Below, piece after piece: positions 23,097 through 58,343 of a stretch of DNA of 64,000 bases. The DNA comes from Desulfofundulus kuznetsovii DSM 6115 (GTDB lineage Bacteria; Bacillota; Desulfotomaculia; Desulfotomaculales; Desulfovirgulaceae). Within the stretch, counting starts at the first letter, position 1. The number at the start of each line of letters is the position of its first letter. The notes under the pieces were generated by a model that was not told the origin of the DNA, searched no databases, and saw only the letters and a list, made by a program, of their open reading frames with translations. The position numbers and the translations under genes are program-made. The stretch lies in NCBI RefSeq assembly GCF_000214705.1, contig NC_015573.1, positions 2,425,001-2,489,000 of the forward strand. The letters run 5' to 3'.

Positions 23097-23108
23097 GGCA
23101 ACCAGCTC

Positions 23109-24269: not shown

Positions 24270-24270
24270 G

Positions 24271-32452: not shown

Positions 32453-32524
32453 ACGGAATTCCACCTTTCAGAGTTTCTCTTATTATATACTCTATAAGGT
32501 AGAAATTACAACCGTTCCTACAAA

Positions 32525-36007: not shown

Positions 36008-36015
36008 CTCCCTGT

Positions 36016-36051
36016 AAAAATGAAAACCGCCCCTGTTGGTGGGAGCAGTTT
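36016..36051 (-). terminator. terminator after the transglycosylase/peptidase gene
   Basis: Ten-pair stem AAACTGCTCC with GGGGCGGTTT (two G-T pairs), then TCATTTTT on the minus strand. Confidence 0.6.
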
Positions 36052-36055
36052 GCAA

Positions 36056-37060: not shown

Positions 37061-37071
37061 TGAACCACCTC

Positions 37072-37102
37072 AAAAAAAAAAAGAGCCCACGTCAGGGCTC
37101 TT
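37072..37102 (-). terminator. terminator after the proline-rich protein gene
   Basis: AAGAGCCC/GGGCTCTT hairpin overlapping the stop codon, then a run of eleven T on the minus strand. Confidence 0.8.
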
Positions 37103-38123: not shown

Positions 38124-39571
38124 CAGCCCATCACCGCCTTTACAAACCCGGTGCCGACGACGAGCACCAGGGAAAGATACAGCCCGTAAACCATTTTGAC
38201 CATGAAGAACCCCAGCAGGGAGCGGAAGTAGCGGGTGGCCAGAGCCCAGCCCGTTTCCGGTATCATCATGGCGTAAAGGGCCAGGGGAAGAACCAAAAGC
38301 AACGCTGCAAGAAAGGCCTGGCAGACCACGATGCTCAAGGCCACGGTCCCGGCCAGAAAAGCAAATGCAATGACCGGGAGCAGTGTCAAACCGGCAACCA
38401 TGACGTGGTTCCAGACGCTGCCGGGGGAAAGACAGGTCATCGTCCCCGGGTGGCCGCCGTGGTCTATTTCTTCCCCTTTTAAAACAAACATAATCTTGCT
38501 GTTGGGCCTGGCCAGGGCCTCCGCCACCGCATCCCGGCCCTCGCCGGCGGAACCCAGGAAGAGCGTGTCGATGCGCATGCCCGGCTGAATTTTGCTCCTG
38601 CTTGCTTCGGGAAAACTACTTTTGTCCAGGACGTTATATTCATCCTGGGTCAATATCAGTTTGCTTTCGTCCGCAGTCCCGAACATGGCCACGGCCCAGG
38701 GTTTCGCCACCACCAGCTGCCATACCGTCTGCCCGGCGACGACCAGACCCCTGTCCACCGGATCGGATACGTTGATATTCTGTCCCGCAGCGGTGTAGCG
38801 GCCGACGGCACCCAGGAAGATTCCGGCCATCTCGTCTGTGGCTCTGGCTGTAGCAGTCAGAATCTGTTTTGCGTTGGTGACGAAGAAGAACACTCCTCCT
38901 ACGGCCAGAACCGACACCAGCAGCGCGCTGAGCGCGGACATGGCCTGTCCCCGCAGCATCCTGAAAGTTGCATGGATCAGGAGCATGATAATTCCAATGG
39001 AAAGGAGAAGCCGGCTGAGCTCGCCCTGCGGGGCGAATATGGCGGCCACTCCTTCCGAAACCCACCCCACCATGGCCGCCACGATATCGGAGTGGAAGGC
39101 CAGGACCAGGGCGTTTAAAGATACCCGGGTCAGCGTTTTGGTGGCGGAGAAAATGAGGTTGGCCACGGACTCCACCACGTTGGCCACCGCCCGATCCGCC
39201 ATGGCCCCCGGGGTGGGAAACTTGTCGGGCGGTACGTGGTGGAATACGTACCGGCCCATGGGCCAGTTCTCCCAGATGGCGTTCTCCGGTCTCGCAATCT
39301 CGGCGATGGCCAGGCTGGTGGCTCCCGTTCCGGCAACCACCAGGGCGAAGGGTCCGCCGACCCCGGCGGCTGAAGGTGCGGTGGCCAGGGCGGAAAGTCC
39401 GATGATGGTGAACAGCTGGCCTTCCATCTGCTTTTCCGTTTCCACATCGCCCTGGAGGTTCCATTCGGTATAGGGCTGATCGCCTATACCCGCCAGGGCG
39501 GCGCCGGGCAAAGTCAGGAGCAGAATCAGTACCATCAGCCACGTACGAACCCTAAAGGTTTTAAAATACAT
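38123..39571 (-). CDS. VirB6/TrbL-like polytopic conjugation protein
   Basis: About 482 residues from ATG 39571 (after GGGAGG): a signal-like start (VRTWLMVLILLLTLPGAALA), a long soluble segment and six or more membrane helices (LLLSIGIIMLLIHATF; LLPVIAFAFLAGTVALSIVV; LLGFFMVKMVYGLYLSLVLV). Position directly after VirB4 and topology match VirB6/TrbL-type channel proteins. It overlaps VirB4 by 11 bp. Confidence 0.65.
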   Translation of the reverse strand: MYFKTFRVRTWLMVLILLLTLPGAALAGIGDQPYTEWNLQGDVETEKQMEGQLFTIIGLSALATAPSAAGVGGPFALVVAGTGATSLAIAEIARPENAIWENWPMGRYVFHHVPPDKFPTPGAMADRAVANVVESVANLIFSATKTLTRVSLNALVLAFHSDIVAAMVGWVSEGVAAIFAPQGELSRLLLSIGIIMLLIHATFRMLRGQAMSALSALLVSVLAVGGVFFFVTNAKQILTATARATDEMAGIFLGAVGRYTAAGQNINVSDPVDRGLVVAGQTVWQLVVAKPWAVAMFGTADESKLILTQDEYNVLDKSSFPEASRSKIQPGMRIDTLFLGSAGEGRDAVAEALARPNSKIMFVLKGEEIDHGGHPGTMTCLSPGSVWNHVMVAGLTLLPVIAFAFLAGTVALSIVVCQAFLAALLLVLPLALYAMMIPETGWALATRYFRSLLGFFMVKMVYGLYLSLVLVVGTGFVKAVMG

Positions 39572-41363
39572 TTTCAACTCCCTCCCGCCCGGCCCGGGCT
39601 GCGCCGGGTGACGTGTCAAAGACCCGCAGCAGGTAATCAGGCCTGGGATCGATATACACGTGCCCGATACGGCCCCGGGCGTCCCGCATAACGCACCAGC
39701 CGCTTTCCATGGAACGGAACAGCGTGCTCAAACCCGTGCCGCTTTTTTTCTCCTCCTCTTCCGGGTCAGCCCCGAGCAGTTCCAGATTGGCCCTGATTTC
39801 GGATTTGTCCTGGGCACGGAAGCACATGACGTAACCCACGTTGTTTTTGACGGTTTGCAGGTCGCCAATATCCGTGGCATTCTGGGTAATAAGCATCGGA
39901 ATGACGTTATGTGCGCGGGCCCCCATGCGGATCAGTTCGTCCACCACCCGCCGGCCTTCAGAGATTCCCAGGAGCATCCAGGCTTCGTCAAAGGCTTCGC
40001 ACTTAATCACATCCGGCGGCAACGAGAAAGCCACCTCCCGGGCCATTGCGGCCGTCAGGTAGAGCATGGCCAGGCCCTGGCGTTCGCTCTCCGTTATCCT
40101 GCCGGACATGAGGTTCTCCGCCGTACGGGGCAGGGGTAAACCCTGCAGGTTGATTACCGTGACCCGGCCCAGACCGGCGTCCGTTTCAGTGCCGAAAACC
40201 AGGCTGCCCATGCTGCTGTCCCGCAGGGATTCCAGGAGCAGGGCGCACTGCCCCGCCTCCTGGGCCACCTGGCTGTGGGGGCTTTCCCGGGCGAGAATGC
40301 GGAGTTCCTCCAGACACGACTGCAGGGAGCGGTTTTCCGGAGGCATGTTCCCCACCGCCTCCACCGCCCTGCTGACGGCCACCCTGCGGGCGTCGTTATC
40401 GACGCTAAGGTTGAGGACAATGGATAGATAATCCAGGGCAATGCTTTTTGCCCTGCGCGGGTCGCTGGAAAGAGTGAACGGGTTGAGCCGTGCACTGCCT
40501 CCGGGGCAAAGGTCGACCTTCCTGATGGGAAAAAGTTCTTCAAAGACGCAGTATTCGTTTTTCGGGTCAATTATAACCAGGTAGGCACCGCACAAGCGCG
40601 CCAGGTAGAGCAACAACTTCACGGTGAGGCTCTTGCCTCCGCCCAGGCCGCCGCTTATGAAGATGGCGTTGGAGCGGTTCAGGTGCCTGGCGGCATGGCC
40701 CGGTTTCCACCACACCGGGGAGGCTCCGGACCAGCCGATGAAAAAGCCGCAACCGTCTCCCAATTCCAGGGAAACGGTGGGGCCGGCGGCCGCGAGGAAG
40801 CCGGGGTCGCACTCGATCATGGGCGCGGCAGGCTGCGCTCCGGGAATAAAGGAGTAGAGGCACTTTTCCTGGTCGCCTACCGGCCGTACGGCCCGGTAAC
40901 CTGACGAGGAATACCGTTCCATTAGCCGTACTGCGATGGCCCGTGCTTCCTTCAGGTCCCGGGCGGCCACGGCCAGGGTGACCGCCATGGAGGCCAGGGG
41001 CTGGCCTCCACCCAGTTTTCCTTCCAGGAACCTGCCCTGTGTCACTCCATATTCTTCGTCCGTACTCGGTTCTTCCCCGCCTTTGAGGGTCTCCCTGATC
41101 TGGCCCTTGAGGTATTTGCGGCGGCTTTCCGCCTTCTTTTTTGCCTTGTAGGGTCTCAAAACGTGGAAATGCACCACGGCGTCGACTGCAGCCTGTTCCG
41201 TGTCCAGGCTGGCCAACCACTCGGCGCCGGTTTCCGGCAATGCCTTCGGCAGATCCGGGAAGGTGATGAACACCTGGTGGTGGCATTCATCCGCACCGTT
41301 GGTGATTGTAATATAGCCGGGTCTTTCTTCAAGCAGACAGCCATCGGAAAATGCGCTGATTAT
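39561..41363 (-). pseudogene. virB4: VirB4-like conjugation ATPase, 5' end lost at IS copy 2
   Basis: About 601 residues remain. Walker A is ISGGLGGGKSLTVKLLLYLA, Walker B IKCEAFDEAWML, followed by LITQNATDIGDL, typical of VirB4/TraE motor ATPases. The frame enters directly from the end of IS copy 2, which supplies the apparent start (MGLGVKVQ). Family members are usually about 800 residues, so an N-terminal portion is missing. Without it and its own promoter, transfer is probably inactive here unless a partner supplies VirB4. Confidence 0.8.
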
Positions 41364-43204
41364 CTGAACTTTAACACCCAATCCCAATAAAACCCCGGAA
41401 AATCAAGGCTTCCGGGACATAACGAGTTGGCGTGCCACAACATTTTCCCTTATTATGGTAGATTTGCTAATTAATGATTATTACATGATTTGGTACTCCT
41501 ATTCCCAATGCTTTAAAAGCTTGAAAAGCATTTCCTGGTAACTCAGTTCGGCACAAGTATCTTATACCTTCCAGGGTTAACTCGACGGCTTTTAGATTTT
41601 TTAAATCTCTCATGAGATACAAGTATTCAACCTGGCTGCCGGCCAGCTTTAGATACCGGTAAAAAGCCGATTCCAACACCAGCGCCAGAAAACAAACCAT
41701 GACATGTGCCCTTACCCGGCGGTCTTTCCAGTGGTAGATTGGCCTTAAATCAAGGGTGGATTTTAATTCCCGAAAGGCCCTTTCCAACCGCCAGAGTTCT
41801 TTGTATGCCAGGGCTGCCTCTGCGGTGTCCAGTTGGGAGTTGGTCCTGAGAACATATTTCCCGTCATAACGGGCATCTTCTTCCAGAGCCTTCTGATCCA
41901 CGGCAACATTGGCGCCTGATATTTTCAGAAACCTGCTGTAGCCACTGTTTGATAGCATTGATTTAAGACCTTTTTCGCTGAGCTGTTTTTCCAATTTCTT
42001 GACAATCTCTTCCCGGGCTTTTCGGTCGTGTTCAGCCTCCATTGGGTTATAGCAGATAATGTAACGATTGGCATCATGCCAGACTTCTTTTACTTTCAAG
42101 TTCTCGGTCACTTCTTTATAACGGCCGCCCGTTTTCAACACTTCCGCAACCGCCTGCATCCGGCGCATTTTTACGCCGACGATATATTCGATATGTTCTT
42201 TATCCAGCTCATCCAGAAGTGTTGGGCTAACCATTCCCCGGTCGGCTACGAAGATTACCCGCCGGAGTAGAAACCGCGTTCGGGTATCATGGATGACCTT
42301 CTTGAAGGTCTCGATGTCGGCAGTATTACCGGGAAAAACCTGGTGAGCCACCGGTATTCCTTCCCGGGTCATAAGCACTCCTACAATAATCTGCACCCGG
42401 TCGGAGCGGTGGTCTTTGGAATACCCGTATTCCGCCAGACCTTCGGGACCATTTCCAGTGAAGTAGGTGGAGGTGGTGTCCCAGAAAACCAGATCCAGTT
42501 CCAGGTTAAAGAGATTTTTCGTTTGCTCAAATAACTCCAGTTCAATGGTTTCCTTATGTAAGATGAGAAAGTCCAGTGCCCGGTAAAAATGGTGTAACTC
42601 CAGTTCCTTAAAGGCGGGCCGGTAGATCTCGTTGATCCATTCGTTGACCGCCCGCTTGGACAATGGGTCACTGATACGGTTTAGGACCATGGCGTATATG
42701 GCTTCATCAAGAGGGCTGGTTATTTCTGTTTTCTCAAGAAGGTTTTTGATAATGGCAGCCAGTCCCAGCTTTTCCCACAGGTGCCGGAAGATCAGCTCGG
42801 TACCCCATTCTTTTGCCTCTAAGACCATGAGCCTGGCGGCTTCAGCTTGGACCCACCTCTTTTTGGAGAATTTAGCCAGACTTTCAATTAAACGGTCGAG
42901 GCTACCCGACTGGGCATCTTCAATGCGGCCCAGGTTAGCAACAACTTTCTGGCGTACTTTACCGTTTTCACGAACACCTTCAACTATTTGTAAGTACGTC
43001 CTTTTAGTGCCATCTTTATTGGTGAAGGTTTTTGTCCTGACAAACATAGCATAATCATTATAACATGGCAACATTGGATATTCAAAGACAACAAATGGTA
43101 TACGTGGCACAACATTTTTTGATAATCCCAATATACATCCTTGATTTTACTGGGTTTTCAAGAGTTGATGGAGCCTAAAACCGGCTTTTACTGTCAAAGT
43201 TGAG
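41364..43204 (-). mobile_element. IS1634-family insertion sequence, copy 2
   Basis: This element is 1841 bp and nearly identical to copy 1, inverted relative to it. Ends CTGAACTTTAACA and CTCAACTTTGACA are present. The flanking pentamers differ (ATTAT left, ATAAC right), so there is no target duplication. On the left it truncates virB4; on the right it abuts a fragment of an unrelated plus-strand gene. Confidence 0.9.
41467..43050 (-). CDS. IS1634-family transposase, intact
   Basis: About 527 residues from MFVRTKTFTNKDG. DDE-type transposase with WDTTSTYF, VFVADRGMVSPTLLDEL (first strand block FVADRGM) and the C-terminal WRLERAFRELKSTL carrying the Glu. An upstream ATG at 43131 would add 27 residues but is poorly conserved in style. 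This copy is open throughout and may mobilise copy 1 too. Confidence 0.85.
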   Translation of the reverse strand, partial: AMFVRTKTFTNKDGTKRTYLQIVEGVRENGKVRQKVVANLGRIEDAQSGSLDRLIESLAKFSKKRWVQAEAARLMVLEAKEWGTELIFRHLWEKLGLAAIIKNLLEKTEITSPLDEAIYAMVLNRISDPLSKRAVNEWINEIYRPAFKELELHHFYRALDFLILHKETIELELFEQTKNLFNLELDLVFWDTTSTYFTGNGPEGLAEYGYSKDHRSDRVQIIVGVLMTREGIPVAHQVFPGNTADIETFKKVIHDTRTRFLLRRVIFVADRGMVSPTLLDELDKEHIEYIVGVKMRRMQAVAEVLKTGGRYKEVTENLKVKEVWHDANRYIICYNPMEAEHDRKAREEIVKKLEKQLSEKGLKSMLSNSGYSRFLKISGANVAVDQKALEEDARYDGKYVLRTNSQLDTAEAALAYKELWRLERAFRELKSTLDLRPIYHWKDRRVRAHVMVCFLALVLESAFYRYLKLAGSQVEYLYLMRDLKNLKAVELTLEGIRYLCRTELPGNAFQAFKALGIGVPNHVIIIN

Positions 43205-43456: not shown

Positions 43457-43552
43457 CAAACAAAAAAGCCCGCATTCCCGCGGGCCGCAAAACCGGGAGG
43501 TACTTCCGCCACCGCTACCCCTCCCGAAAGCAGCGGCTTCCAGCCATAAAAA
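43457..43552. repeat. 97-bp structured repeat, copy 1
   Basis: Closely matches 47369-47466 in the same orientation. It contains GCCCGC/GCGGGC (with a T run on the minus strand) and CGGGAGG/CCTCCCG inverted repeats. Near 43.6 kb there is another hairpin, GGCAGGGG/CCCCTGCC, but no gene. Confidence 0.65.
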
Positions 43553-47368: not shown

Positions 47369-47466
47369 CAAACAAAAAAGCCCGCGTCCCCGCGGGCCGC
47401 AAAAAACCGGGAGGTACACCCGCCACCGCCGCCCCTCCCGAAAGCGGCGGCTTCCAGCATAAAAAA
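47369..47466. repeat. 97-bp structured repeat, copy 2
   Basis: Same sequence as 43457-43552 with compensating changes (GCCCGCG/CGCGGGC; GCCGCC/GGCGGC). It begins 16 bp after the recombinase stop. Its last hairpin plus T6 on the minus strand can act as the terminator of the recombinase operon. Confidence 0.65.
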
Positions 47467-47481: not shown

Positions 47482-48336
47482 CTACTCCCACGATAGCTTC
47501 TCCACAGCCTTCTCTAAATCCTGTACCCCCGGCCTGGTGTACCTAGCCGTAGTGTTCAAATTAGAATGACCCGCTAAAACTGCCACCCGGTCCAGGCTCT
47601 CCCCCGCGTCCACCAGCATCTTGCAGAAGGTGTGCCGCAACTGGTGAGGCGTGACTTCCACCCCCGCCAGCCGGGCATATTTCTCCAGAACCTTTTCGGC
47701 AGTCCGGGCGGTCATGTGTCCCTTTCGTCCGGGAAAAAACCAGTCGCCGCCGGGGTGGACGGTAAGCCACTCCTGAATTATTCTTCGGACCGTAACGTTC
47801 AACGGCACTTCCCTGCGTTTTCCACCCTTGCCCTCCCGGACCGTCACCCAGCCTGAACGCTCCCGGATTACCACGTCTTCCACATGCAGCGATACCGCCT
47901 CGGAGATCCGCAGGCCGGCGTGCAGTAGAATCGCCAGCAGCGCCCGGTCCCTGGGAATGCCGTACTTCTGTACCGCTCTCATCAGTGCTCCCAATTCCTG
48001 TCTTGTGAGCCACCTGGGAGCTCCACGCTGCTCCGGAATTCTCTTGACACCCTCTGTCGGATCGGAGGAAATCATCCCATTGGACGCAGCCCACGAAAAA
48101 AAGGATGACAGGGCATCCAGGTGAAGGTTTATTGTGGCCGGCTTGCGATTCCTGTTCAGCATGTACCGGCGGTAGTCGGCCACATCCAGCGGTGTGACGG
48201 AGGCCGGGTCGAATGGGGATCCGGTTGTATCCTCCAGCCATCTCATGAAGCTGCGCAAGGCCCCCGTATATGCTGCTATGGTTTTCAAAGAACAATTCCG
48301 GCTCTTCAAGTGTACAATGAACCCATCCAGTCCCAA
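47482..48336 (-). CDS. tyrosine recombinase (XerC/XerD-like integrase)
   Basis: A 284-residue protein with an N-terminal SAM-like core-binding domain (SLKTIAAYTGALRSFMRWLE) and a catalytic domain carrying all key residues: Arg in GLRISEA, HxxR in HQLRHTF, His in GHSN and the Tyr nucleophile in TARYTRP. The TTG at 48336 follows directly after the nuclease stop with GGAG six bases upstream, so it is co-translated with the restriction genes. It may serve the mobility of the defence region; the structured repeat just after it is a candidate site. Confidence 0.85.
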   Translation of the reverse strand: MGLDGFIVHLKSRNCSLKTIAAYTGALRSFMRWLEDTTGSPFDPASVTPLDVADYRRYMLNRNRKPATINLHLDALSSFFSWAASNGMISSDPTEGVKRIPEQRGAPRWLTRQELGALMRAVQKYGIPRDRALLAILLHAGLRISEAVSLHVEDVVIRERSGWVTVREGKGGKRREVPLNVTVRRIIQEWLTVHPGGDWFFPGRKGHMTARTAEKVLEKYARLAGVEVTPHQLRHTFCKMLVDAGESLDRVAVLAGHSNLNTTARYTRPGVQDLEKAVEKLSWE

Positions 48337-48780
48337 CTACAGCTCCCCCTTGTTGGCGCGGGCGAGGAAATCTTCCAGGGATACTACTTCCACCAGGTGG
48401 CCATCAGCAAGAACCTCACGGTGATTGTTGCGCAGCAAAAAGCTGCGCGCCCCCTTGGAAAAACCGGTTCCTCCAAGAACTACATAAGCCCTGCGGTACT
48501 TGTCCGAATTCTGGATGATGGAGATAAGGCTTGCTATTTCATACAAAAGTTTTTGTTCTGCCGTTCCAGGAACCTGTTGCCATTTTGCACTCACTATGAT
48601 TCCGCCGGTATCGTCCTGGACAACAAAATCAGCATAGTAAGTAGCCCCAAAGAGCTGATTCCCCACAGGCACATGGGTTTGAAACCGCCCCGAATAGTGT
48701 ATTTCAAGAACCGGCTTGATGACCCGTTCCCAAAAGGCTCCTGTTTTGGTTCCTTTCCCGCCCGGTGACAATCTCCCCAC
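48337..48780 (-). CDS. PD-(D/E)XK nuclease, likely restriction endonuclease
   Basis: A 147-residue protein with the nuclease core YYADFVVQDDTGGIIVSAKW (D then x(n) SAK plus QQ), the PD-(D/E)XK layout. It lies 6 bp after a Dam-like methylase gene, so the two make a compact type II restriction-modification pair. If the methylase recognises GATC like DpnM/Dam, the nuclease should cut the same site; that is an inference. It is small for a restriction enzyme. Confidence 0.65.
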   Translation of the reverse strand: MGRLSPGGKGTKTGAFWERVIKPVLEIHYSGRFQTHVPVGNQLFGATYYADFVVQDDTGGIIVSAKWQQVPGTAEQKLLYEIASLISIIQNSDKYRRAYVVLGGTGFSKGARSFLLRNNHREVLADGHLVEVVSLEDFLARANKGEL

Positions 48781-48786
48781 TCCCGT

Positions 48787-49632
48787 TCAGCTATAGTTGC
48801 GAATAACCAACTCCGATATCGGTCCACGCTTATCGGCCCGGCAATTAATGGCTCTTTTTGCGTAAACCACCTGTATGTCGTAGTTCTTATAAAGCTCACG
48901 AATGAATGGCGTATCCGAGTTGCTTAACATGACCAGACAGCCTTTTCGATCCAATTCCCGAAACACTTCCGCCAAACGCCGCTGGTCGTCTTCTCCAAAT
49001 GCATCGGGAGTATAGCTGGTGAAATTGGCTGTTTCCGAAAGCGGATGGTAGGGTGGGTCCAGGTACACGAAAGCTCCCCGATCCGCGCAGTCCAGGACCC
49101 GGCTGAAGTCGCCGCAGATTATCTCCGCCCTTTTCAAAGCCTCGCTCACCAGGCGGAGGTTCGGCTCATCCACTATTTTAGGGTTCTTGTAACGTCCGAA
49201 TGGCACGTTGTGCTTACCCTGGCTGTTCACACGCCACAACCCGTTGTAGCCCGTCTTGTTCAGGTAGAGAAATCTCGAGGCCCGCTCCACGGGAGTTAGC
49301 TGACCGGGATCAAGGGCGCGGATGCGGTAGTAGTATTCCGCAGTATTTTCGTGCCTTCTCAGGTCCTGTAGAAGGGCCTCCAGGTTGTCCCGCACAACCA
49401 GGTAGAAATTGATTAACTCATCATTGCTGTCGATCAGCACCGCCCTGGGGGGTAGCAGGTGGAAGAAAATTGCCCCGCCGCCGACAAAAGGCTCAACGTA
49501 GAGGCTGTACTCTCTTTTAGGAAACAATGGTTCGAACTGAAGTATAAGCTGGGATTTCCCCCCTGCCCACTTGACGGGGGGCCTAGGTTTTTCTTCCTTT
49601 GTCTGAGCATGGTATGTCTCGTACAAAACCAT
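48787..49632 (-). CDS. Dam/DpnM-type DNA adenine methyltransferase
   Basis: A 281-residue D12-class methylase: motif X PPVKWAGGKSQLI, motif I YVEPFVGGGAIFFHL, region NKTGYNGLWRVNSQGKHNVP, and motif IV VYLDPPYHPL. These enzymes methylate adenine N6, usually in GATC. ATG 49632 touches the ribosome site; TTG 49626 would have better spacing. It protects host DNA against the adjacent nuclease. Confidence 0.8.
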   Translation of the reverse strand: MVLYETYHAQTKEEKPRPPVKWAGGKSQLILQFEPLFPKREYSLYVEPFVGGGAIFFHLLPPRAVLIDSNDELINFYLVVRDNLEALLQDLRRHENTAEYYYRIRALDPGQLTPVERASRFLYLNKTGYNGLWRVNSQGKHNVPFGRYKNPKIVDEPNLRLVSEALKRAEIICGDFSRVLDCADRGAFVYLDPPYHPLSETANFTSYTPDAFGEDDQRRLAEVFRELDRKGCLVMLSNSDTPFIRELYKNYDIQVVYAKRAINCRADKRGPISELVIRNYS

Positions 49633-49648
49633 CTCCCCCCTGAGTTAA

Positions 49649-49733
49649 CTTATGCGAACAAAAAATTCGCCCTTAACCGGGCGAACTCCTGCACCTTATG
49701 CGAATTTTCCTGGGGTATTTTTTCGCATAAGGG
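49649..49733. repeat. three copies of TTATGCGAA, two forming a palindrome
   Basis: CTTATGCGAA at 49649-49658; CCTTATGCGAA (49694-49704) and its inverse TTCGCATAAGG (49722-49732) form a perfect 11-bp inverted repeat. They lie upstream of the restriction-modification genes and may be an operator. Confidence 0.4.
49660..49686 (-). terminator. terminator of the four-gene methyltransferase operon
   Basis: TTCGCCC-TTAACC-GGGCGAA then six T on the minus strand, about 150 bp after the methyltransferase stop. Confidence 0.7.
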
Positions 49734-49838
49734 CTCTTATACGAGTTACGAGTTAAAATTCGTGAAAAATGAAACCAACTTCGGCAACAGGTTATATGGT
49801 TTCAGATAAATTATTGCAAGACAGTTATCCCCCATCTA

Positions 49839-51116
49839 TTATTCCGCTTGCAAAATAACAACAGTTTCTCGTGACGGAATCCTACCATACCTTCCCATCT
49901 GCTGGGCACTGTTACCTCGCAACCGAATCACCCAAGATGCCAGATGTCGGAAGCCAGCTTGGCGACCAATATCGACTAGAATTTCATCGACCGGACATAG
50001 TACCCCGTAATGACGGACATTACCGACCACCAGAGCTACCTTCGCACCGGGCCTGAGGACTTCATGTGCCGAACGCAGAACCAGGAACATATCCTCGAAA
50101 TAGCCCTTTAGCATCCGCCTAACGCGTCGGTCGGATTTTGCAGGCAATTGGTCGAGACACTGGGCGAGAAGGGAAGGTATCCTGTAACCAGCCAGAGCAG
50201 CCTGTGATTCCGGCTCAGGCGGTTTCGCCTCCACATGAGAGCGTACAGAATTATACCTGAGACGGGTGATATTGTCTTCACTCTGCCCCAAAAGAAGTAG
50301 CTCTATCTGAAAAACCCTACTGTAATCGTGGCGGTTGGGATAAGGAGGCGATGTGATCAACCCATCAAAGATCCTGGGTTTCAATTCGGACAGTTTACGG
50401 GCATCAAGAAGATAGACTTCCCAATCCCTGAAATCCTGCTCGTGCCCTAAGGGAGCAAAGTGTAGATCTCCCATCATACTTGTTGCATGTGCCCAAAGTC
50501 TTGGAGCAATCTGATCTGCTTCTTCAGGTCGTTCCACCCAGCGGAACCATCCACCGTCTGCCATTGCTCTACTGAAATCAGGAATAATCCCTAATAAAGC
50601 CACCATGAAGAAGTCCTTTAAGATCCCACCCAAGCGAAAGATTTCCTCCCTCAGAGCAACCAGCACAGCCATTTCAGAAGGAGTAAACGCCTTCTTTAAT
50701 CGCTCCGAATTCTCCCAGAATGATGATGTAGCATAAAACTGATACTCAAGACACCTACATTTCCGCTCTTCCCAACGATGTTGGAGACAATTCAAAGCAG
50801 CCTCTAATTTTTCACGCTGATAAGGCTGCACCTTAACATTGCTTACAAGCACAGCTAAAGGGGAAAGATCGGCTCCCAAAGCCGGGTATCCACGCTCCTT
50901 CGCTACAAGAAGTGTTGTCCCTGCTCCAACGAAGGGATCCAGAAGTACGGAACCTGGCGGTAGGTTCCAAGAATCCAAAATAGCTTCAACTAACTCTGGC
51001 GAATAGGAGTGCGGGAACCAAAACCAGCGGTGAACCGGACGCTGGCGCAAAAGTTGTGGCGTGGCCGCTGAACCCAGGTCCGGTCGATACACCACTACCG
51101 GTTCCTCTGATTTCAT
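49839..51116 (-). CDS. DNA methyltransferase (N4-cytosine/N6-adenine type)
   Basis: A 425-residue protein. Motif I is LLDPFVGAGTTLLVAKERGY near residue 57; the catalytic motif is LITSPPYPNRHDYSRVFQI near residue 250. SPPY points to N4-cytosine modification. The C-terminal AKVALVVGNVRHYGV strand is typical. There is no paired restriction enzyme beside it; instead it is the last gene of a set with a PIN nuclease, an AAA+ ATPase and a winged-helix protein. A self-marking role in a defence system is likely but inferred. Confidence 0.75.
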   Translation of the reverse strand: MKSEEPVVVYRPDLGSAATPQLLRQRPVHRWFWFPHSYSPELVEAILDSWNLPPGSVLLDPFVGAGTTLLVAKERGYPALGADLSPLAVLVSNVKVQPYQREKLEAALNCLQHRWEERKCRCLEYQFYATSSFWENSERLKKAFTPSEMAVLVALREEIFRLGGILKDFFMVALLGIIPDFSRAMADGGWFRWVERPEEADQIAPRLWAHATSMMGDLHFAPLGHEQDFRDWEVYLLDARKLSELKPRIFDGLITSPPYPNRHDYSRVFQIELLLLGQSEDNITRLRYNSVRSHVEAKPPEPESQAALAGYRIPSLLAQCLDQLPAKSDRRVRRMLKGYFEDMFLVLRSAHEVLRPGAKVALVVGNVRHYGVLCPVDEILVDIGRQAGFRHLASWVIRLRGNSAQQMGRYGRIPSRETVVILQAE

Positions 51117-51182
51117 GTTCTCACCTAACCTCCGGCATTTGTAGAATTAATTGCAGGAAAACAAAGAATTCAGTATTTTTAT

Positions 51183-51989
51183 TTATTCCCATGGACGTGG
51201 AGTTTCTTTAGGAAGACTTGTTCTAACCATCGGCAAAGCTAGGGTTACTCCCGTAGCAACTGGAAACGCTCGTTCCAGTTCTCGCAGAATTACATTTTGT
51301 ACCTGTTTCCAGTCATCGTTGATTGGGTTATGTATATTATTTATAACACGCCTAAAATACCTATCGAAAGTAATTATGTATTCAGCTTGAGACACGATTG
51401 CACAACTGTAGTTCCAACAATCAAAAACATCCATAAAGATGGTACTCTGTAATATTTCGGCAAATGTAGCAATAAGTAGAATATTATCCTCTTCTTCGAC
51501 AAAGTTTATCGGTAACCCTACTTTATAACGAATATTATTAAATAAATCATCCAACTCTCCGTATAATTGCTGGTAGTCATCTCGATCTAAATACATTGAA
51601 ATAAGTTCGCTCAAATCTTTCAAACGTATTCGCATTCGATAGGGAATATCAACAAGTGCCATCCGCGCATGAGCTCGACCGTCTAAAATCCCATGAAGCA
51701 TCTCCAATTTACTTATGCGTGAAGTATTCACCAATAAACCGTCATTGTCCGCGTCATCAACCTCTTTTTCAAGGAAGGCAATTGTTTTGCAACCATTCAT
51801 TAGATAATTAACGATCCCTTGTGGTAAGTGTTGCTTGAGTACATTTTCTACTTCATCGTAAATCATTGGTGTTTCTGCAAAAGGAGGTAATTTATACTCT
51901 TTAGCTTTACGAAGGTAAGAACTCATGTATTGTAGAGCATTTGTATCTAGAAATATCGTAGGTCTGATCAGGGAAGCCGCATCGCTCAT
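51183..51989 (-). CDS. PIN-domain nuclease of the four-gene module
   Basis: A 268-residue protein. PIN signature: IFLDTNALQYM near the N-terminus, DCWNYSCAIVSQAEYIITFD and RYFRRVINN near residue 205, giving the acidic triad; IYDEVENVL supplies another acidic residue. It is much larger than VapC toxins because of a helical insert (residues 60-180). It overlaps the ATPase stop by 4 bp (ATGA), so the two are co-translated and probably work together. Confidence 0.65.
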   Translation of the reverse strand: MSDAASLIRPTIFLDTNALQYMSSYLRKAKEYKLPPFAETPMIYDEVENVLKQHLPQGIVNYLMNGCKTIAFLEKEVDDADNDGLLVNTSRISKLEMLHGILDGRAHARMALVDIPYRMRIRLKDLSELISMYLDRDDYQQLYGELDDLFNNIRYKVGLPINFVEEEDNILLIATFAEILQSTIFMDVFDCWNYSCAIVSQAEYIITFDRYFRRVINNIHNPINDDWKQVQNVILRELERAFPVATGVTLALPMVRTSLPKETPRPWE

Positions 51990-53182
51990 TTGATGCTTCC
52001 CTCCTCCGTAGAGGTAACGGAAGGATAAAGTTCCTCTTGGATTCGATTTATGTAATCAGCCGTAAAAGGTACTTCAATCCCTGAAATGGAGGTGCTGGCT
52101 GCCCGTGCTATAGCCAAGCTACACACCTTGACTAACCTACGAGGCGAAGACTTGATGTCCTCGCGAAGATAATTAATTAACTCTTTTGGAAAAGGGAACA
52201 GGTTATCCGAACCACCTTCTTCAGGTCTGGCACTTTTAAGACGATGCTGAACTAACTCCACTGCCTCATAATCATTCAGGGGAGGAATTTCAAACTCATG
52301 TTTTCCATGGCTAACAAATCGCTCCCATAGTGCTGGTTCCAACTTGGCTGTAATGTCTTTGGCCTGAGGAGTCATTGCTATAACGATCCAGAACTGCTCT
52401 CTCTCAGTAAGGCCAATTAGTCTTTTCATAGTTGACAAGTAGTCATGGGCTTGGCGTTTTGTAAGTCGTTTTTGTAGCGAAATTTCTTCGAATTCATCCA
52501 GGAGAAAACCTATTGCATTAGCGCTTCCTGTAAAACGAAGAGAACGAAGTACAGCAGCAAAATAAGGCGCTTCTTCTCTTTCTGCCACAAGAGAAGTGCG
52601 GTGACCAGCAACAAAATCTTTATATTCAAAATAAGGTTGGTCATACGTTTCAACTATCAAGCGTGCTAGTTTATATCGAACTTCTTCATCTGTCGCAATT
52701 TGTCTTTCAGCAATTTTTTCTGCTAGTAACCGAATTGCCTCATCCTGTCTGCGGTATTTCTTAACGGTACGCAACCACTCCCGAAAAGGGTTACCAAACA
52801 AAGACATCTGAAAACCCGGTAATTGCGGATTCAAAAACTCCCATAAGGATTTAGCAAACTCTTCTCGCCCGATCTGTCGGAGCAAAGAGTTCGCTAAATC
52901 ATAAAACTGTGCTCCAGGGTTATCAAAGTAAAAAGCACGAATGCGTCGCTTAGGAAATTCTACCCTTTCCAACCAACGGAGTAAATAGGTCTTCCCACTG
53001 CCATAACCGCCTAAGATAGCATAAGCTTTTGGCCCACGAGTATATTCCATTGCATCTATGAAGTCCTGTAGTGGTTGACGCCACCGTTCAGGAACCCACA
53101 AGGCACCAGAAACAGGCGCACCACTTCCTGCCGGTTCAAAAGGATTATAAACTAGATTTAAACGCGAGAAAGGGTTCCCCAT
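51986..53182 (-). CDS. AAA+/ORC-like ATPase of the four-gene module
   Basis: A 398-residue protein. Walker A YAILGGYGSGKTYLLRWLE, Walker B IGFLLDEFEEISLQK, sensor-like FWIVIAMTPQ, and a C-terminal lid with SSPRRLVKVCSLAIARA. It resembles ORC/Cdc6-like and BREX-type ATPases that load onto DNA. ATG 53182 follows a perfect AAAGGAGGTG. It overlaps the winged-helix gene upstream by 25 bp. The likely role is ATP-driven DNA scanning or control of the PIN nuclease. Confidence 0.7.
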   Translation of the reverse strand: MGNPFSRLNLVYNPFEPAGSGAPVSGALWVPERWRQPLQDFIDAMEYTRGPKAYAILGGYGSGKTYLLRWLERVEFPKRRIRAFYFDNPGAQFYDLANSLLRQIGREEFAKSLWEFLNPQLPGFQMSLFGNPFREWLRTVKKYRRQDEAIRLLAEKIAERQIATDEEVRYKLARLIVETYDQPYFEYKDFVAGHRTSLVAEREEAPYFAAVLRSLRFTGSANAIGFLLDEFEEISLQKRLTKRQAHDYLSTMKRLIGLTEREQFWIVIAMTPQAKDITAKLEPALWERFVSHGKHEFEIPPLNDYEAVELVQHRLKSARPEEGGSDNLFPFPKELINYLREDIKSSPRRLVKVCSLAIARAASTSISGIEVPFTADYINRIQEELYPSVTSTEEGSIK

Positions 53183-54156
53183 TGAAACACCTCCTTTAGC
53201 TTTCGATGAATTCGGATATGTGAAATATATTGCCCCCCTTCTTGTAAGTAACTACGTAATTGATATGCTTCTGCCCCAGGCGATTCAGCAGTAATAGTAG
53301 CAAATGCTTCTGCAGTAGGAATCAAAACAACGTATTCTTGGTAAGCTTTGCGAATAGCAGATAATGTCCCAAAGATGCGCTTTAGAGGCACACGATATCG
53401 AGGTCCCCACTTAAAAGCTATATCACGAACAGATAAAGTCGTCCATAATGTTTCATCTTTAACTTCCTTTAGAAGGGCCATACTGATCGCTAAATCGGGT
53501 ATAGTGCCTTCGGCCCTAACAGGAAACATTACACCGCCCTTATCCTCGAGAAATATTTCATCCAAAATAATTAGTTCATTTCGTGCCCAGTAACGAATTC
53601 CATAAAGAATAGCTTGAAATTCATCTTCAGTACGCAGCCAATACTCAACCTTGTCGTTATCCAGGTTATAAAGACGTACCTGGCGTCCTTGTGAACTGAG
53701 ATAAGTTTTCCATGCTATCCGTTGGCCAAAGGAGATAAACTCATCAAGATCGTAAGTTTCTCGGTCTGGCATAAAGAAGTTAAAAAAATAGTGCCTACAA
53801 TCTTCATTGGCTATTACTAATTGTGAAAATAACCGACGCTCGTCCGACGAAAGGGTTGACGTCCCGGGAGAGATAATTGCCAAAAGGGCTCGTACAATAG
53901 GATTTTTTTTATTTACCAAATAGCACCCTTTCTGACGGATAAGGACCCCAAGGTGAAGTAAAGTATTACGGTAATGATAAATCGTAGTTCTCGAAGGTAG
54001 CCTATTCTCCTTAGTTTCCAATCTTCGTTCTTGTCGCACCAGGTTTTCAATATCCTTCGCGCGCAAACCTCCTGGATGTTCTGATATAAGACCTATGAGC
54101 TCACGAAGGGCAACAAAAGACACAGCCCGCATCCACAACTTTTTACTAAAAGTCAT
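53158..54156 (-). CDS. winged-helix protein of the four-gene module
   Basis: A 332-residue protein. Residues 15-90 look like a winged-helix DNA-binding domain (LRELIGLISEHPGGLRAKDI, RTTIYHYRNTLLHLGVL). The remaining 240 residues are unrecognised, with a conserved-looking AWKTYLSSQGRQVRLYNLDN. ATG 54156 follows AAGGAG. As first gene of the operon it could be a DNA sensor or specificity subunit rather than a simple repressor. Confidence 0.55.
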   Translation of the reverse strand: MTFSKKLWMRAVSFVALRELIGLISEHPGGLRAKDIENLVRQERRLETKENRLPSRTTIYHYRNTLLHLGVLIRQKGCYLVNKKNPIVRALLAIISPGTSTLSSDERRLFSQLVIANEDCRHYFFNFFMPDRETYDLDEFISFGQRIAWKTYLSSQGRQVRLYNLDNDKVEYWLRTEDEFQAILYGIRYWARNELIILDEIFLEDKGGVMFPVRAEGTIPDLAISMALLKEVKDETLWTTLSVRDIAFKWGPRYRVPLKRIFGTLSAIRKAYQEYVVLIPTAEAFATITAESPGAEAYQLRSYLQEGGQYISHIRIHRKLKEVFQWGTLSRV

Positions 54157-54458
54157 CTCTCATCTCCTTCTTGAAAGTTTACTTTGACGACGCAGGTAAC
54201 AATAAAAACAGTTTTTAAGGTACATGCGAACGAGAACATTGTACCAGAAGTTTTTTATTTTTCGTTACCGCCACCACGGTTCTTTTATCAGGTCAGGATG
54301 GTTGACCCCCTAGAAATAATGAAAGTTTTTTGAGGTTCGTATTCGTAAACCGTTTAATTCTTGCAGCAACCTTTGAGGGCAAAAGTAAAATTGGCGACAT
54401 TTTTCACTCTCACCTCACTGCGGAGAAATTTTTATCAATATGCTTAGTCCTTGATTTC
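54157..54458. other. promoter region of the four-gene module; no gene
   Basis: About 300 bp without a convincing frame. 54345-54430 matches 33045-33130 next to the intact Rpn-like gene, so it is old 3' flank of the Rpn copy. Confidence 0.4.
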
Positions 54459-54788
54459 CTATGGCTGTTTTATTACATCATCAGGATAACCTCCCAGATT
54501 TTCGTTCAGCGCATCAAGCACGGCATCTTGCATCCATTGAATTCCTTTTTGTTCACCTTGAGCAATCCACTTTTCCCGGAGGCCGTCAGATAACGGAAAT
54601 GCTTCCATTCTGCTTACCTCGATGTTCTTAAGAATTATTTCGTCCGAAATTTTTCCCAGATGAGTGAACAGAACCAGATCGAGATCTAATCGCTTAACCG
54701 CAGGCATTCCCCGTACCAATTAGATAAAATGGGTCGAGTACCAGTCAACCAGAGCTTTTATGATAAGGTCGTATTCCTGCAATATCAT
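54459..54788 (-). pseudogene. Rpn-like gene with large internal deletion
   Basis: It begins MILQEYDLIIKALVDWYSTH like the gene at 33179-34057, then has a stop (TAA) and jumps from LVRGMPA to LFTHLGKISDEIILKNIEVS, losing roughly 130 codons. The last part (EAFPLSDGLREKWIAQGEQK) matches in order. The 40 bp upstream of both starts are also alike, so one is a copy of the other. Confidence 0.7.
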
Positions 54789-55284: not shown

Positions 55285-55675
55285 AAGACCCACCCTTTCT
55301 CCCGCTTTTCGCCGCACGCAAAAAGAGATCATGCGTGCGCCCCCGGCGCGCCAACGTGGAGGCAGCGGTAATTCGCGCCGGTACGGTACCTTGCCCGGAG
55401 CTGAGCTCACGCACCGTGGAGCAGACCGCCCTCACACTTTCCCGCCCGGGGTGTGCCAAACGGGAAAGGTGAAAGAAGCCCCCTCGCACGGCTCCCTGGT
55501 TTCAGGGTTACGGGATGCACCGTCGCGCAGAACACTCCCAGTTATCCCCAAGGGGGTCCCCGTTTTCCGGTCCGGTGGCCCGGCGGCAACCGACTGCGCC
55601 GCGGCGCCTGCTCGGCAGGACCGGACCGCCGCTGGGGGGAAGGGCTGTGTCAAGGAACATCGCCACAGAATTCGT
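55285..55675. other. about 390 bp without a recognised gene
   Basis: A GC-rich stretch; only frames that shadow each other. CGCACGC and GCGTGCG form a short inverted repeat near 55313-55340. Confidence 0.4.
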
Positions 55676-56019
55676 GCACCAGCCTGCACGTCTGTGGAGG
55701 GCTTTTACCCGGGCGGGACGCCATCCCCGCCGCGGGCGCGGCTCTTCAGGGCGGCCGCCTTCCCCCAGGTTTAACCCTCGCTGGCGGGCACGACTGTTTC
55801 CCGGACTGTCGTCGTCCGCCCGGCGGTTTCACCCCCCGCCGGCCGGGTCAAGTGGACTGCGTTGCGCTGCACCCCTGGTTTGTGCTGCCGCAACCACTCT
55901 CCCACGCCCCTACGGGCCGCTGCATCAGAAGGCGATGCGGCAGGACTTGCAGAGGGGCTCCCGGATTATCCCCTCTCCCATGCCGTCAAGAGCTTGACGG
56001 CCAGGGACAGGGGATAATG
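55676..56019 (+). repeat. long structured repeat, copy A (344 bp)
   Basis: It shares nearly all its length with copy B (57998-58343). Its last 54 bp (55965-56018) form a nested palindrome: ATTATCCCCT...AGGGGATAAT around GCCGTCAAG-AG-CTTGACGGC. No coding frame is conserved between the copies. It ends just before an XRE gene pair. Confidence 0.75.
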
Positions 56020-56088
56020 TAACGAAACGAAATTTTTACCCAGCGAACAGGAAATTTATACCTGTTCGGTTAAGTAATAAATTATTGG

Positions 56089-56328
56089 TCATTTACAGGC
56101 TGCTGGCGGTAAATCTTCACTGTACAGAAACTCCGAAATTGTCAGGCCGAAAGCTTTTGCAATCTCCACCGCCTCGTCAATATCCGGTAAGAATTTACCG
56201 TTTTCCCAGTCTGAAATTGTCGTCTGTGGTTTACCAATCATCTGCCCGAGCTCTTGCTGTGACAGTTTTCTTTCTTTTCGCAGATAACGGAGCCTCGCCC
56301 CAAAGGTTTTTGCGTCCACTTCTTTCAC
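56089..56328 (-). CDS. XRE-family regulator, pair 1 minus member
   Basis: A 79-residue single-domain HTH_3 protein: LRYLRKERKLSQQELGQMIG, KPQTTISDWENGKFLPDIDE. It is divergent from the regulator at 56457, with the palindrome GTAAACG/CGTTTAC between them. This Cro/CI-like layout suggests mutual control. Confidence 0.7.
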   Translation of the reverse strand: MKEVDAKTFGARLRYLRKERKLSQQELGQMIGKPQTTISDWENGKFLPDIDEAVEIAKAFGLTISEFLYSEDLPPAACK

Positions 56329-56345
56329 CTCCGTCTGCTTATATG

Positions 56346-56365
56346 GTAAACGGTTTATCGTTTAC
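56346..56365. promoter_or_regulatory. palindromic operator of XRE pair 1
   Basis: GTAAACG-GTTTAT-CGTTTAC, with a weaker AACG...CGTT near 56426-56439 before the plus-strand gene. Confidence 0.55.
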
Positions 56366-56456
56366 TGTCAATGGTATTTCGTTAGATGTCCTGCAGAAAA
56401 TATGTTTTACAATATTTCTGGGATAACGGATTTTCGTTAAGAAGGGTATGTTTTAC

Positions 56457-56789
56457 ATGGATATTGCCGACCGTATTGTACAGCTGCGCAAAGAGAAGAA
56501 TTACAGCACCACAAAACTGGCCAAACTTGCCGGAATAGCGCAGTCCACGCTTCGTGAAATCGAGTTGGGCAAGACATCGCCGACCTGGGACACGATCCTC
56601 AAGCTTTGCAGGGCGCTTGGTGTTTCACCCCGTGAATTGCTCGATTTTGAACCGGATGACCGGGGCGATTTGCCCCACGACTTTAAACGTTTCCTGGAAG
56701 TTGCCCGTCTTCTCACCCCCCGCCAGCGTGAGTTAATCCTGGAAGTTATGGAAGAATGGGCGGAATATAACAGGATTAAAGCTAAATAA
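56457..56789 (+). CDS. XRE-family regulator, pair 1 plus member
   Basis: About 110 residues from ATG 56457. HTH: VQLRKEKNYSTTKLAKLAGI, AQSTLREIELGKTSPTWDT. After the HTH comes a helical tail (DFKRFLEVARLLTPRQRELI) found also in the plus members of pairs 2 and 3. It is followed by a membrane protein gene. Confidence 0.7.
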   Translation: MDIADRIVQLRKEKNYSTTKLAKLAGIAQSTLREIELGKTSPTWDTILKLCRALGVSPRELLDFEPDDRGDLPHDFKRFLEVARLLTPRQRELILEVMEEWAEYNRIKAK

Positions 56790-56838
56790 CGGCTTCTGTA
56801 GTTTTACTAAATTACAATCTTTCAAACAGGTGTTCCAT

Positions 56839-57615
56839 ATGACCCCGTCTGAATTAATCATTAACTTTGTGATCGGAATTGTTACCGGGCTGGCTACAGG
56901 CGCTTTCTTTGCCGCTAGAACCAAACCCGGCGACCTATCAATTGATGATTTTGTGTTTAGGAATTATGCCTGGAGACACCATGCCACTCTTACCATAAAT
57001 GTTCGTTATAAACCCGTTAAATCTTCTCCAAGTGATAGCACGGAGACTGAAATTGCAGGGATACTTGTTTTGGTATTTTTGGCTCTGGCAATTTCAACTG
57101 CAATACTTGCCAATTACCAGCAACAAGTCCTATCTTTTGGTTGGCTTTTAATTTCATTTTTCGGGGCATCGGTTGCGTCTTTCATTTTCTTATCCTTCTT
57201 ACGGGATAGGATAGTAAGCTGGTTTGGTTTATGGAGCCTGATTTGTATCCTGGGCATTACTTTCAACTTCTGGATTTTTTCTCTCTCGTTGAGCAACCCT
57301 GTTTATGCAAGCTACCTCCAAGATGTGAGAAACAATGGTGTTTTCGAAGCTATATCCCGGATGAATGATGTCGGATTTCTACCGCTCTATCAGCTTACTG
57401 GCCTTGTCTTTCTTTGCATCGTAGCTGGAATGGCCTTCGTACAGTCATTTTTCGTTTTGCTTTGGCCACTCATTCCCCGTAACAGAATTATCTTATTTCT
57501 CTTCAGGTGGACCGTCATTTTTGTAAACAAGTGGAGCATGTTTTCCCAGGCAGTTCTCCTTTTTATGGCTTATAGTTTCTTGAGTGGAAAAATTCTTCAG
57601 TGGTTCGACCGTTAG
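56839..57615 (+). CDS. hypothetical polytopic membrane protein, 258 aa
   Basis: About six membrane helices (IINFVIGIVTGLATGAFFAA; ILVLVFLALAISTAILANY; WLLISFFGASVASFIFLSFL and three more). The family was not recognised. It follows the XRE gene by 50 bp, so it may be its target. It is AT-rich relative to its surroundings and converges with another membrane gene, overlapping it by 4 bp. Confidence 0.55.
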   Translation: MTPSELIINFVIGIVTGLATGAFFAARTKPGDLSIDDFVFRNYAWRHHATLTINVRYKPVKSSPSDSTETEIAGILVLVFLALAISTAILANYQQQVLSFGWLLISFFGASVASFIFLSFLRDRIVSWFGLWSLICILGITFNFWIFSLSLSNPVYASYLQDVRNNGVFEAISRMNDVGFLPLYQLTGLVFLCIVAGMAFVQSFFVLLWPLIPRNRIILFLFRWTVIFVNKWSMFSQAVLLFMAYSFLSGKILQWFDR

Positions 57616-57971
57616 TCTCCTGGATAAAAAGCCTTTAAAAATTTTCGATTCCATTCGTTCAAGTCACCACAAAACAGGCTTAGCATCGATCTCCTGAGCC
57701 GGGGGATCATAACACCCGCGATAAAGAGGATGGGAGACAGAATGGCTCCCACGTGCATCACGATAAACAAGATCCGGAAACCAAACTCCGGCGCCAGCAA
57801 ATGCCATATCACCAGCACTTTTATCAACGGGCCGAGGAGAAACCAGAGCCCGAACATTACAACTACCGCCCGAAACATTCTCAAGGCGGAAGCCAGTATG
57901 AAACCTGCGATGGCCACCCACCTCTGGCCATCCTTCAGACCCACGCGGGTTGTATTGTCCTCGATTTTCAT
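57612..57971 (-). CDS. hypothetical membrane protein, 119 aa
   Basis: ATG 57971 follows GGGGGAG. There are two or three helices (GFILASALRMFRAVVVMFGL; LFIVMHVGAILSPILFIAGV), with polar N- and C-terminal parts. Not recognised. Its 5' end adjoins repeat copy B. Confidence 0.5.
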   Translation of the reverse strand: MKIEDNTTRVGLKDGQRWVAIAGFILASALRMFRAVVVMFGLWFLLGPLIKVLVIWHLLAPEFGFRILFIVMHVGAILSPILFIAGVMIPRLRRSMLSLFCGDLNEWNRKFLKAFYPGD

Positions 57972-57997
57972 GTACCGCTCCCCCATGCTTTTGCGCT

Positions 57998-58343
57998 GCA
58001 CCAGCCTGCACACCTGCAGAGGGCTGCTTCACCCGGGCGGGACGCCACTTCCGCCGCGGGCGCGGCTCTTCCGGGCGACCGCCTTCCCCCAGGTTTAACC
58101 CTCGCTGGCGGGTACGACTGTTTCCCGGACCGTCGTCGTCCTCCCGGCGGTTTCACCCCCCGCCGGCCGGGTCAAGTGGACTGCGTTGCGCTGCACCCCT
58201 GGTTTGTACTGCCGCAACCACTCTCCCACGCCCCTACGGGCCACTGTATCAGGAGGTGATGCGGCAGGACTTGCAGAGGGGCTTCCGGATTATCCCCTCT
58301 CCCGTGCCGTCAATAGCTTGACGGCCAGGGACAGGGGATAATG
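57998..58343 (+). repeat. long structured repeat, copy B (346 bp)
   Basis: A second full copy. Changes relative to copy A include small indels that would shift any frame, so it is not coding. The terminal nested palindrome is kept (ATTATCCCCT...AGGGGATAAT). Confidence 0.75.

Follow-up and report, generated by a model that had tools for sequence, protein, structure and literature searches.

The TdtA operon of ICETh1 in Thermus thermophilus HB27 is given, in the cited passages of PMC5365140 and PMC7767461, as Tth111II/TthHB27I - NurA - TdtA - N4/N6 methylase. It is needed for DNA donation in T. thermophilus, the tested role being donation and not defence, with TdtA, NurA and the IIG enzyme as the drivers of ICETh1 donation (PMC5365140). 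Absence of the operon methylase in Thermus had only minor effects on DNA transfer, according to a passage that in turn cites a thesis (PMC7767461). The cassette analysed here lies in the window, which is the whole stretch of 64,000 nt, and all coordinates are counted within it. The cassette resembled the TdtA operon in its last gene, an N6_N4-family methylase gene (about 410 aa), and in a nearby Xer-family recombinase; loci L019-L021, which have the window's methylase family, showed the exact TdtA gene order. It differed in having a first gene, an AAA and a PIN instead of the IIG enzyme, NurA and HerA that make up a TdtA-type operon, these window genes being of other families. The terminal methylase belonged to the N6_N4-family subfamily of TdtA-type operons, as assigned through L002 and L019-L021 and not through the Thermus protein itself. 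The likeness to Thermus rests on gene order and sizes (1106, 377, 568 and 410 aa in the Thermus operon vs 1122, 378, 584 and 410 aa in L006), not on direct protein comparison.

BREX (BrxC/BrxD, PglX, PglZ) likewise combines an ATPase with a DNA methyltransferase, and the AAA of L005 and L006 passed the Pfam BrxC_BrxD cut-off (28.7 and 27.4 bits; cut-off 22.2). However, the match was confined to some 40 residues of the P-loop region, the window AAA scored below the cut-off (15 bits), and the module includes a PIN-like nuclease. The BrxD score was 14.9 bits vs 350 required (NCBIfam), and neither a PglZ nor a BrxC model was among the matches listed for the eight locus proteins (for the methylase, the best 25 of 45 in PADLOC). 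For DISARM, which has the DrmA helicase and DrmB, no Drm model was among the PADLOC matches listed for the eight proteins. MADS shares methylation plus an ATPase, with weak local PADLOC matches to mad8-AAA (15.9 bits) and mad2-methylase (33.8 bits), but its gene set (MAD1-MAD8) differs, and NCBIfam MAD models gave no match to these proteins up to E 0.1. Strict labelling as BREX, DISARM, MADS or VapBC was rejected. DS-3 and DS-5 (DefensePredictor) are described in the cited part of PMC13092281 as one- and two-protein PIN antiphage systems; compared by that description and not by sequence, they share a PIN nuclease effector without a classic antitoxin and differ in that no methylase or AAA is described there. 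The AAA-PIN set had no description in the literature and profile libraries searched. The original prediction that the cassette does not match BREX, DISARM, Septu or another nameable set stood in that no library system model fitted, but its methylase family is shared with TdtA-like operons.

Gene layout and protein families

Four genes had been predicted at 49839-54156, and four minus-strand ORFs were found with exactly these limits:

53158..54156, minus strand: first gene, called winged-helix (ORF, 332 aa), probable DNA-binding component
51986..53182, minus strand: AAA+ type ATPase (ORF, 398 aa) with Walker A and B
51183..51989, minus strand: PIN-like protein, putative nuclease (ORF, 268 aa)
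49839..51116, minus strand: DNA methyltransferase of N6_N4 type with SPPY (ORF, 425 aa)

The predicted overlaps of 25 nt and 4 nt and the PIN-to-methylase spacing of 66 nt were measured as such. Walker A and B, PIN-type acidic residues and SPPY, predicted to be intact, were present and conserved among homologs. In Pfam and NCBIfam, none of the first three window proteins passed a cut-off; in PADLOC, 15.9 bits was their top score.

The AAA was the best conserved of the four genes (50-52% pairwise identity across three loci). One residue varied in each of Walker A (GGYGSGKT) and Walker B (FLLDEFEE) across the three homologs, and the remainder was invariant. Its score with Pfam AAA_22 was 24.7 bits (cut-off 27), a cut-off exceeded by the AAA of L005 (37.2 bits) and L006 (36.3 bits). 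The first gene showed an HTH-like stretch at its N-terminus by eye, and its homologs in L005 and L006 had 34-40% pairwise identity. The winged-helix label was weaker than claimed: at thresholds up to E 0.1, neither Pfam nor PADLOC nor NCBIfam gave a match, and the single-sequence AlphaFold model was uninformative (pLDDT 39.7).

The PIN label was likewise weaker than claimed, with a Pfam PIN score below the threshold (17.6 bits; cut-off 23.6). The L005 protein scored 17.9 bits against the same cut-off, and the L006 protein had no PIN match in Pfam up to E 0.01. Residues D15, N17, E96, D187, D190 and D209 were invariant in three homologs, at 26-34% pairwise identity across the three loci. The alignment-based AF2 model was poor (pLDDT 54.7); the Foldseek matches listed included no PIN fold, and none reached E 0.001. 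Solved structures were also searched by sequence with each of the first gene, AAA and PIN, both singly and as a three-row profile, and no match was convincing; CpcN, the top solved-structure match of the PIN-like protein (9.7e-05), was taken as a helical-repeat match.

The PIN-like protein could be an RNase toxin restrained by the AAA and DNA-binding proteins in a methylase-linked unit, which is judged unlikely; that such a toxin would act on its own cell, upon loss of the mark or operon (addiction) or upon infection (abortive), is equally doubtful. In the cited part of PMC13092281, VapC PIN domains are toxic RNases and two validated antiphage PIN systems depend on their catalytic residues, and AAA and PIN are tightly coupled in the three loci (overlap of 4 nt, overlap of 1 nt, gap of 3 nt). 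However, there was no small antitoxin gene of VapBC type, the spaces around the window PIN (4-nt overlap with AAA, 66 nt to the methylase) being too short for one, and a plain toxin would not need a methylase, yet one was present in 3/3 loci.

Recurrence and methylase partners

A Planctomycetota MAG carried the four genes in the same order as the window; in a Levilinea (Chloroflexota) MAG, NurA-HerA stood between wHTH-AAA-PIN and the methylase that followed. The first gene, AAA and PIN were contiguous with a same-strand methylase downstream in 3/3 AAA loci; the methylase directly followed PIN in 2/3, with NurA and HerA between in 1/3. The genes therefore remain neighbours elsewhere, as far as three loci tell, and these three are the whole basis for what is concluded about the module. 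Because the order recurs in two other phyla, the arrangement exceeds chance, and the cassette is a conserved unit. As to the prediction overall, a real conserved unit was upheld, but the first-gene and PIN labels had weak support, and the methylase usually has other partners (an IIG enzyme, NurA and HerA), so that the set is not wholly unrelated to described systems.

The AAA is very rare among sampled genomes: no further copy was found in 112, 397, 399, 293, 240 and 7 other genomes (samples partly overlapping), nor in plasmid, phage or viral-contig scans. Viral scans with PIN and with the first gene, and the plasmid scan with PIN, yielded nothing of use. The scan of genome contigs relied on exact matches to six 8-residue patterns from a single protein and would miss more divergent relatives.

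The window methylase scored 35.1 bits with Pfam N6_N4_Mtase (cut-off 26.7) and 182.4 bits with PADLOC MTase_II. The stretches SPPYPNRHDY and RGNSAQQM were invariant among five methylases, and pairwise identity across the three AAA loci was 40-49%. The methylase was encoded in 4 other genomes among the 298 of a phylum sample, ending there an operon IIG enzyme-NurA-HerA-methylase, with one genome copy decayed. It shared 41-50% identity with the terminal gene of the IIG-NurA-HerA operons L002 and L019-L021. The same operon was seen in 1/5 viral contigs with the methylase, 2/5 having the methylase at the contig end with the genes upstream out of sight. The plasmid scan with the methylase matched 13 records at 22-28% identity.

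Methylases of the wHTH-AAA-PIN loci fell in two fully supported clades, separated by a 100/100 branch. A single clade of all three was rejected (p-AU 1.3e-120), as was a clade of the window and L005 methylases (p-AU 3.1e-07). As these methylases occupy two clades, both partner sets were exchanged beside one methylase family; the IIG-NurA-HerA and first gene-AAA-PIN sets seem to be swapped around one kind of mark. No HerA relative was found in the window genome, and the IIG enzyme had only a partial match there (28%), elsewhere than the four genes, so the AAA-PIN set is the only known partner of the methylase in that genome. It is very improbable that wHTH-AAA-PIN and an independently moving methylase are unrelated neighbours. 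The methylase was often found without wHTH-AAA-PIN, and the gap of 66 nt separates it from PIN in the window, but the same-strand downstream methylases of the 3/3 AAA loci came from two clades, so that the association arose or was retained on more than one occasion.

A phage gene for a Holliday-junction resolvase on viral contig L011 was interrupted by a complete methylase, with a stub of 44 residues from the HerA C-terminus ahead of it. The methylase has thus been captured by a phage, its source being a HerA-type operon and not an AAA-PIN one. A phage that acquired the methylase of such an operon and retained nothing else of it suggests that the mark shields DNA. Viral contig L013 carried a methylase fragment beside a phage terminase.

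Strain variation and flanks

Three of five same-genus genomes (G064, G062 and G063) were compared with the window. The features concerned were:

49741..54699, no strand: strain-variable stretch, cassette plus gene remnant (about 54401-54682)
49661..49688, minus strand: terminator-like stem plus six T (49655-49695 fold -18.7 kcal/mol, z -4.57)
48787..49632, minus strand: flanking Dam/D12 adenine methyltransferase (231.4 bits), kept in G064 and G062
48337..48780, minus strand: flanking PDDEXK_11 nuclease (89.9 bits), kept in G064 and G062
47482..48336, minus strand: flanking Xer-type tyrosine recombinase (126 bits), kept in G064, G062 and G063

Homology to G064 and G062 stopped at 49740; weaker stretches matched at 54401-54682 before it resumed at 54700. 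Both genomes lacked the cassette and had other DNA between the same flanks; the cassette is a strain-variable insertion. The restriction-modification pair and recombinase predicted nearby were recognised by the profile scores listed above. They were rejected as module members, since G064 and G062 keep them without the module. A recombinase 39% identical to the window's Xer adjoined the Levilinea locus.

The predicted terminator after the methylase folds as a stem with a T-run, but was absent from the consensus scan, which listed no minus-strand site at the methylase 3' side. The stem lay some 150 nt downstream of the methylase stop codon, and because this DNA is shared with two same-genus genomes, the terminator-like element belongs to the flank. 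Repeats of CTTATGCGAA occurred at 49649, 49695 and 49722, at the border of the shared flank; when one mismatch was tolerated, CTTATGCGAA had five matches in the window vs 3.3 expected. No direct repeats of at least 25 nt in 40000-64000 could be tied to the cassette ends. The window also has T4SS-like genes, including a VirB4-like AAA_10 at 39561-41387.

There is a small chance that the cassette is a module for DNA transfer or element maintenance, in which AAA-PIN would process or move mobile-element DNA and the methylase would protect the element or donor. The TdtA operon, required for T. thermophilus donation, has the same type of last gene, both sets are interleaved within one Levilinea operon, a tyrosine recombinase adjoins the window and Levilinea loci, and the T4SS-like genes share the window. 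However, the set has no HerA/FtsK translocase, its AAA is not a HerA, and the window genome yielded no HerA relative; the methylase effect on Thermus transfer was minor in the cited passage, and the recombinase persists in same-genus genomes without the module.

Proposed function

The cassette has about an even chance of being a mobile functional unit for methylation-guarded defence, in which the AAA+ and DNA-binding proteins would control the PIN nuclease. The cutting set (DNA-binding protein, AAA+, PIN) would replace IIG-NurA-HerA beside the same methylase family. The methylase would mark host DNA, so that host sites are protected, and the first-gene protein with an ATP-driven AAA+ ring would recognise or scan unmarked phage or plasmid DNA. 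Hydrolysis of ATP would then license cleavage by the PIN protein, whose presumed target is nucleic acid of the invader or, abortively, the cell's own.

Counted for this reading were the gene order recurring in two other phyla, the conserved Walker, PIN-type and SPPY residues, the two methylase clades, the AAA-PIN set as the only known partner in the window genome, the phage-borne methylases, the restriction genes and recombinase next to the cassette, and a slot content that varies within the genus. Counted against it were the rarity of the module, the lack of profile support above cut-off for PIN and winged helix, the uninformative structure models, the donation role of the sister operon, and the phage capture from a HerA-type operon. 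The minor transfer effect of methylase absence, as the Thermus passage reports it, is what would be expected of a protective enzyme.

More tentatively, one methylation mark may serve two exchangeable machines, swapped or stacked by bacteria and mobile elements, with phages stealing the mark. The IIG-NurA-HerA set is known to push DNA from donor cells, and Levilinea has both machines. If so, the transfer machine of TdtA would be a repurposed defence system or, alternatively, both sets would be two arms of one immune and transfer platform that reads the mark. If the proposed defence function holds, a PIN-nuclease, AAA-driven restriction set would join the methylation-based defences, and defence would be linked, via exchangeable genes around one methylase, to a DNA-donation machine that has so far been studied only in Thermus.

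Gene identities in the cassette

The four open reading frames are on the minus strand, as in the original prediction; the first three overlap by 25 and 4 nt, and 66 nt separate the third from the methylase.

49839-54156, minus strand: first gene ("winged helix"), AAA+ ATPase (AAA), PIN-like nuclease (PIN) and DNA methylase

In searches of Pfam, PADLOC 2.0.0 and NCBIfam, the first gene had no match to E 0.1. AAA scored below cut-off against AAA_22 (24.7 bits; cut-off 27), NACHT (23.8 bits; cut-off 26.7) and BrxC_BrxD (15 bits; cut-off 22.2), as did the PIN-like protein against PIN (17.6 bits; cut-off 23.6). The methylase scored 35.1 bits against N6_N4_Mtase (cut-off 26.7) and 182.4 bits against PADLOC MTase_II. 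Given these scores, the predicted labels of ATPase and methylase are judged sure by motifs and family, and PIN is likely by residues, but "winged helix" failed to find a profile and is a guess from sequence. The SPPY motif of the methylase, with motif I ahead of it, suggests N4-cytosine methylation.

Recurrence and rarity of the set

An AAA pattern scan of 84,980 species genomes gave 89 matches, two of them relatives, in metagenome-assembled genomes of a Planctomycetota (locus L005) and of Levilinea (Chloroflexota; locus L006). All four window proteins were matched in order in both loci (tblastn). The order in L005 was first gene-AAA-PIN-methylase (junctions 3, -1 and 11 nt), and in L006 IIG enzyme-first gene-AAA-PIN-NurA-HerA-methylase (junctions -26, -4, 3, 2, -28 and -4 nt). 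Conservation across the three loci was highest for AAA (50-52%) and lowest for PIN (26-34%). The AAA of L005 and of L006 exceeded the AAA_22 and BrxC_BrxD cut-offs, the latter match being confined to the P-loop region.

AAA had no match in 112 other genomes of the window's class (E 1e-10), 397 of its phylum (1e-6), 399 (phylum) and 240 (order) around L006, or 293 (phylum) and 7 (order) around L005 (1e-15), these samples partly overlapping, nor in plasmids, phages and viral contigs. The set had no recognisable description in the portions available of the literature searched by title and full text, a scope outside which lie most subscription papers and preprints, where it may be in print, nor in the accessible parts of PMC12839542, PMC10853773, PMC13092281 and PMC11291478.

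Genomic slot

The Xer recombinase-nuclease-Dam methyltransferase stretch (47482-49740) was about 90% conserved in the same-genus genomes G064 and G062, and the right flank, from 54700, was 96% conserved in G064 and 93% in G062. Between these flanks both carried sequences other than the cassette. For G064 these were a subtilase gene (199 bits) and, with 16.5 bits against a cut-off of 21, a YhgA-like gene, a remnant of which lies in the window near 54401-54682. A third, G063, retained only the recombinase and right flank, separated by the gene of a 367-aa GMT-wHTH protein. The cassette therefore sits, by sequence comparison, in a variable slot.

Other features of the surroundings were:

15131-25000 and 34148-41387: VirB4-like (AAA_10), M23/SLT, ParA-GGDEF and type II/IV secretion ATPase domains, suggesting that clusters for secretion, pili or conjugation-like functions lie upstream of the slot
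31735-32464: small PIN_3/VapC-like gene, its start overlapped by a small AbrB-like gene (by eye); probably a toxin-antitoxin system with no relation to the module
43457-43552 and 47369-47466: two almost identical direct repeats carrying a terminator-like stem, of which the second follows closely on the Xer gene; G064 and G063 have a related copy
49649-49732: CTTATGCGAA occurs three times, twice in direct and once in inverted orientation, upstream of Dam and at the edge of strain divergence
55675-58343: a direct repeat of 300 nt (94%), with additional copies in the right flank, present in same-genus genomes too

Methylase partners and proposed function

On the mobile element ICETh1 of Thermus thermophilus HB27, Tth111II (1106 aa), NurA (377), TdtA (568; FtsK-HerA family) and an N4-N6 methylase (410) form a single transcript; DNA donation requires TdtA, and its efficiency NurA and the IIG enzyme (PMC5365140, available part). 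Methylase loss in Thermus had minor effects, according to part of a later paper citing a thesis (PMC7767461). The L006 IIG enzyme, NurA, HerA and methylase (1122, 378, 584 and 410 aa) follow the ICETh1 order, a likeness of gene order and protein size.

A five-row methylase profile (E 1e-60) matched 4 of 298 other phylum-sample genomes (L019-L022), all with relatives of the L006 IIG enzyme, NurA and HerA upstream in the same order. The IIG, HerA and methylase matches of L022 were only partial, so this copy is decayed. The methylase was present on five distinct viral contigs: one (L002/L009) had the complete IIG-NurA-HerA-methylase operon and L011 a HerA stub beside the methylase; L010, L012 and L013 had no IIG, NurA or HerA partner in the available DNA, the methylase lying at the contig end on L010 and L013. 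The first gene, AAA and PIN had no matches to E 0.01 in L009-L013 and L019-L022. The window genome had no HerA relative at 1e-5, and only a partial IIG match (28%) away from the locus.

The unrooted tree of 11 methylases separated the window, L006, L021 and L002 from L005, L010-L012, L019, L020 and L022 (support 100/100). Constraining together the three methylases of the first gene-AAA-PIN loci (p-AU 1.3e-120), or those of the window and L005 (p-AU 3.1e-07), was rejected. By this tree at least two partner changes around the methylase are needed, gain and loss being indistinguishable and L006 holding both sets.

The conserved unit, motifs, partner exchange, variable slot and phage capture were observed. 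In the proposed mechanism the methylase would mark self DNA, AAA and the first protein would read unmarked DNA, and PIN would cut. A role in DNA transfer is the main rival because the sister IIG-NurA-HerA operon has that role; an RNase-based abortive or addiction unit ranks next.

Bearing on the proposed marking, a phage Holliday junction resolvase gene on L011 (9691-11610) was split by a full methylase preceded by a HerA C-terminal stub of 44 residues, both flanking parts being phrog_1770 (profile 3-39 and 54-150 of 158), with phage-like neighbours (Sak4-like and primase families). It looks as if a phage acquired a protective methylase from a HerA-type operon, which points to a DNA-protecting mark, albeit one that acts against the HerA-type set. 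The set is real, rare and, within the search scope, undescribed, and is of a methylation-based kind with a predicted function.
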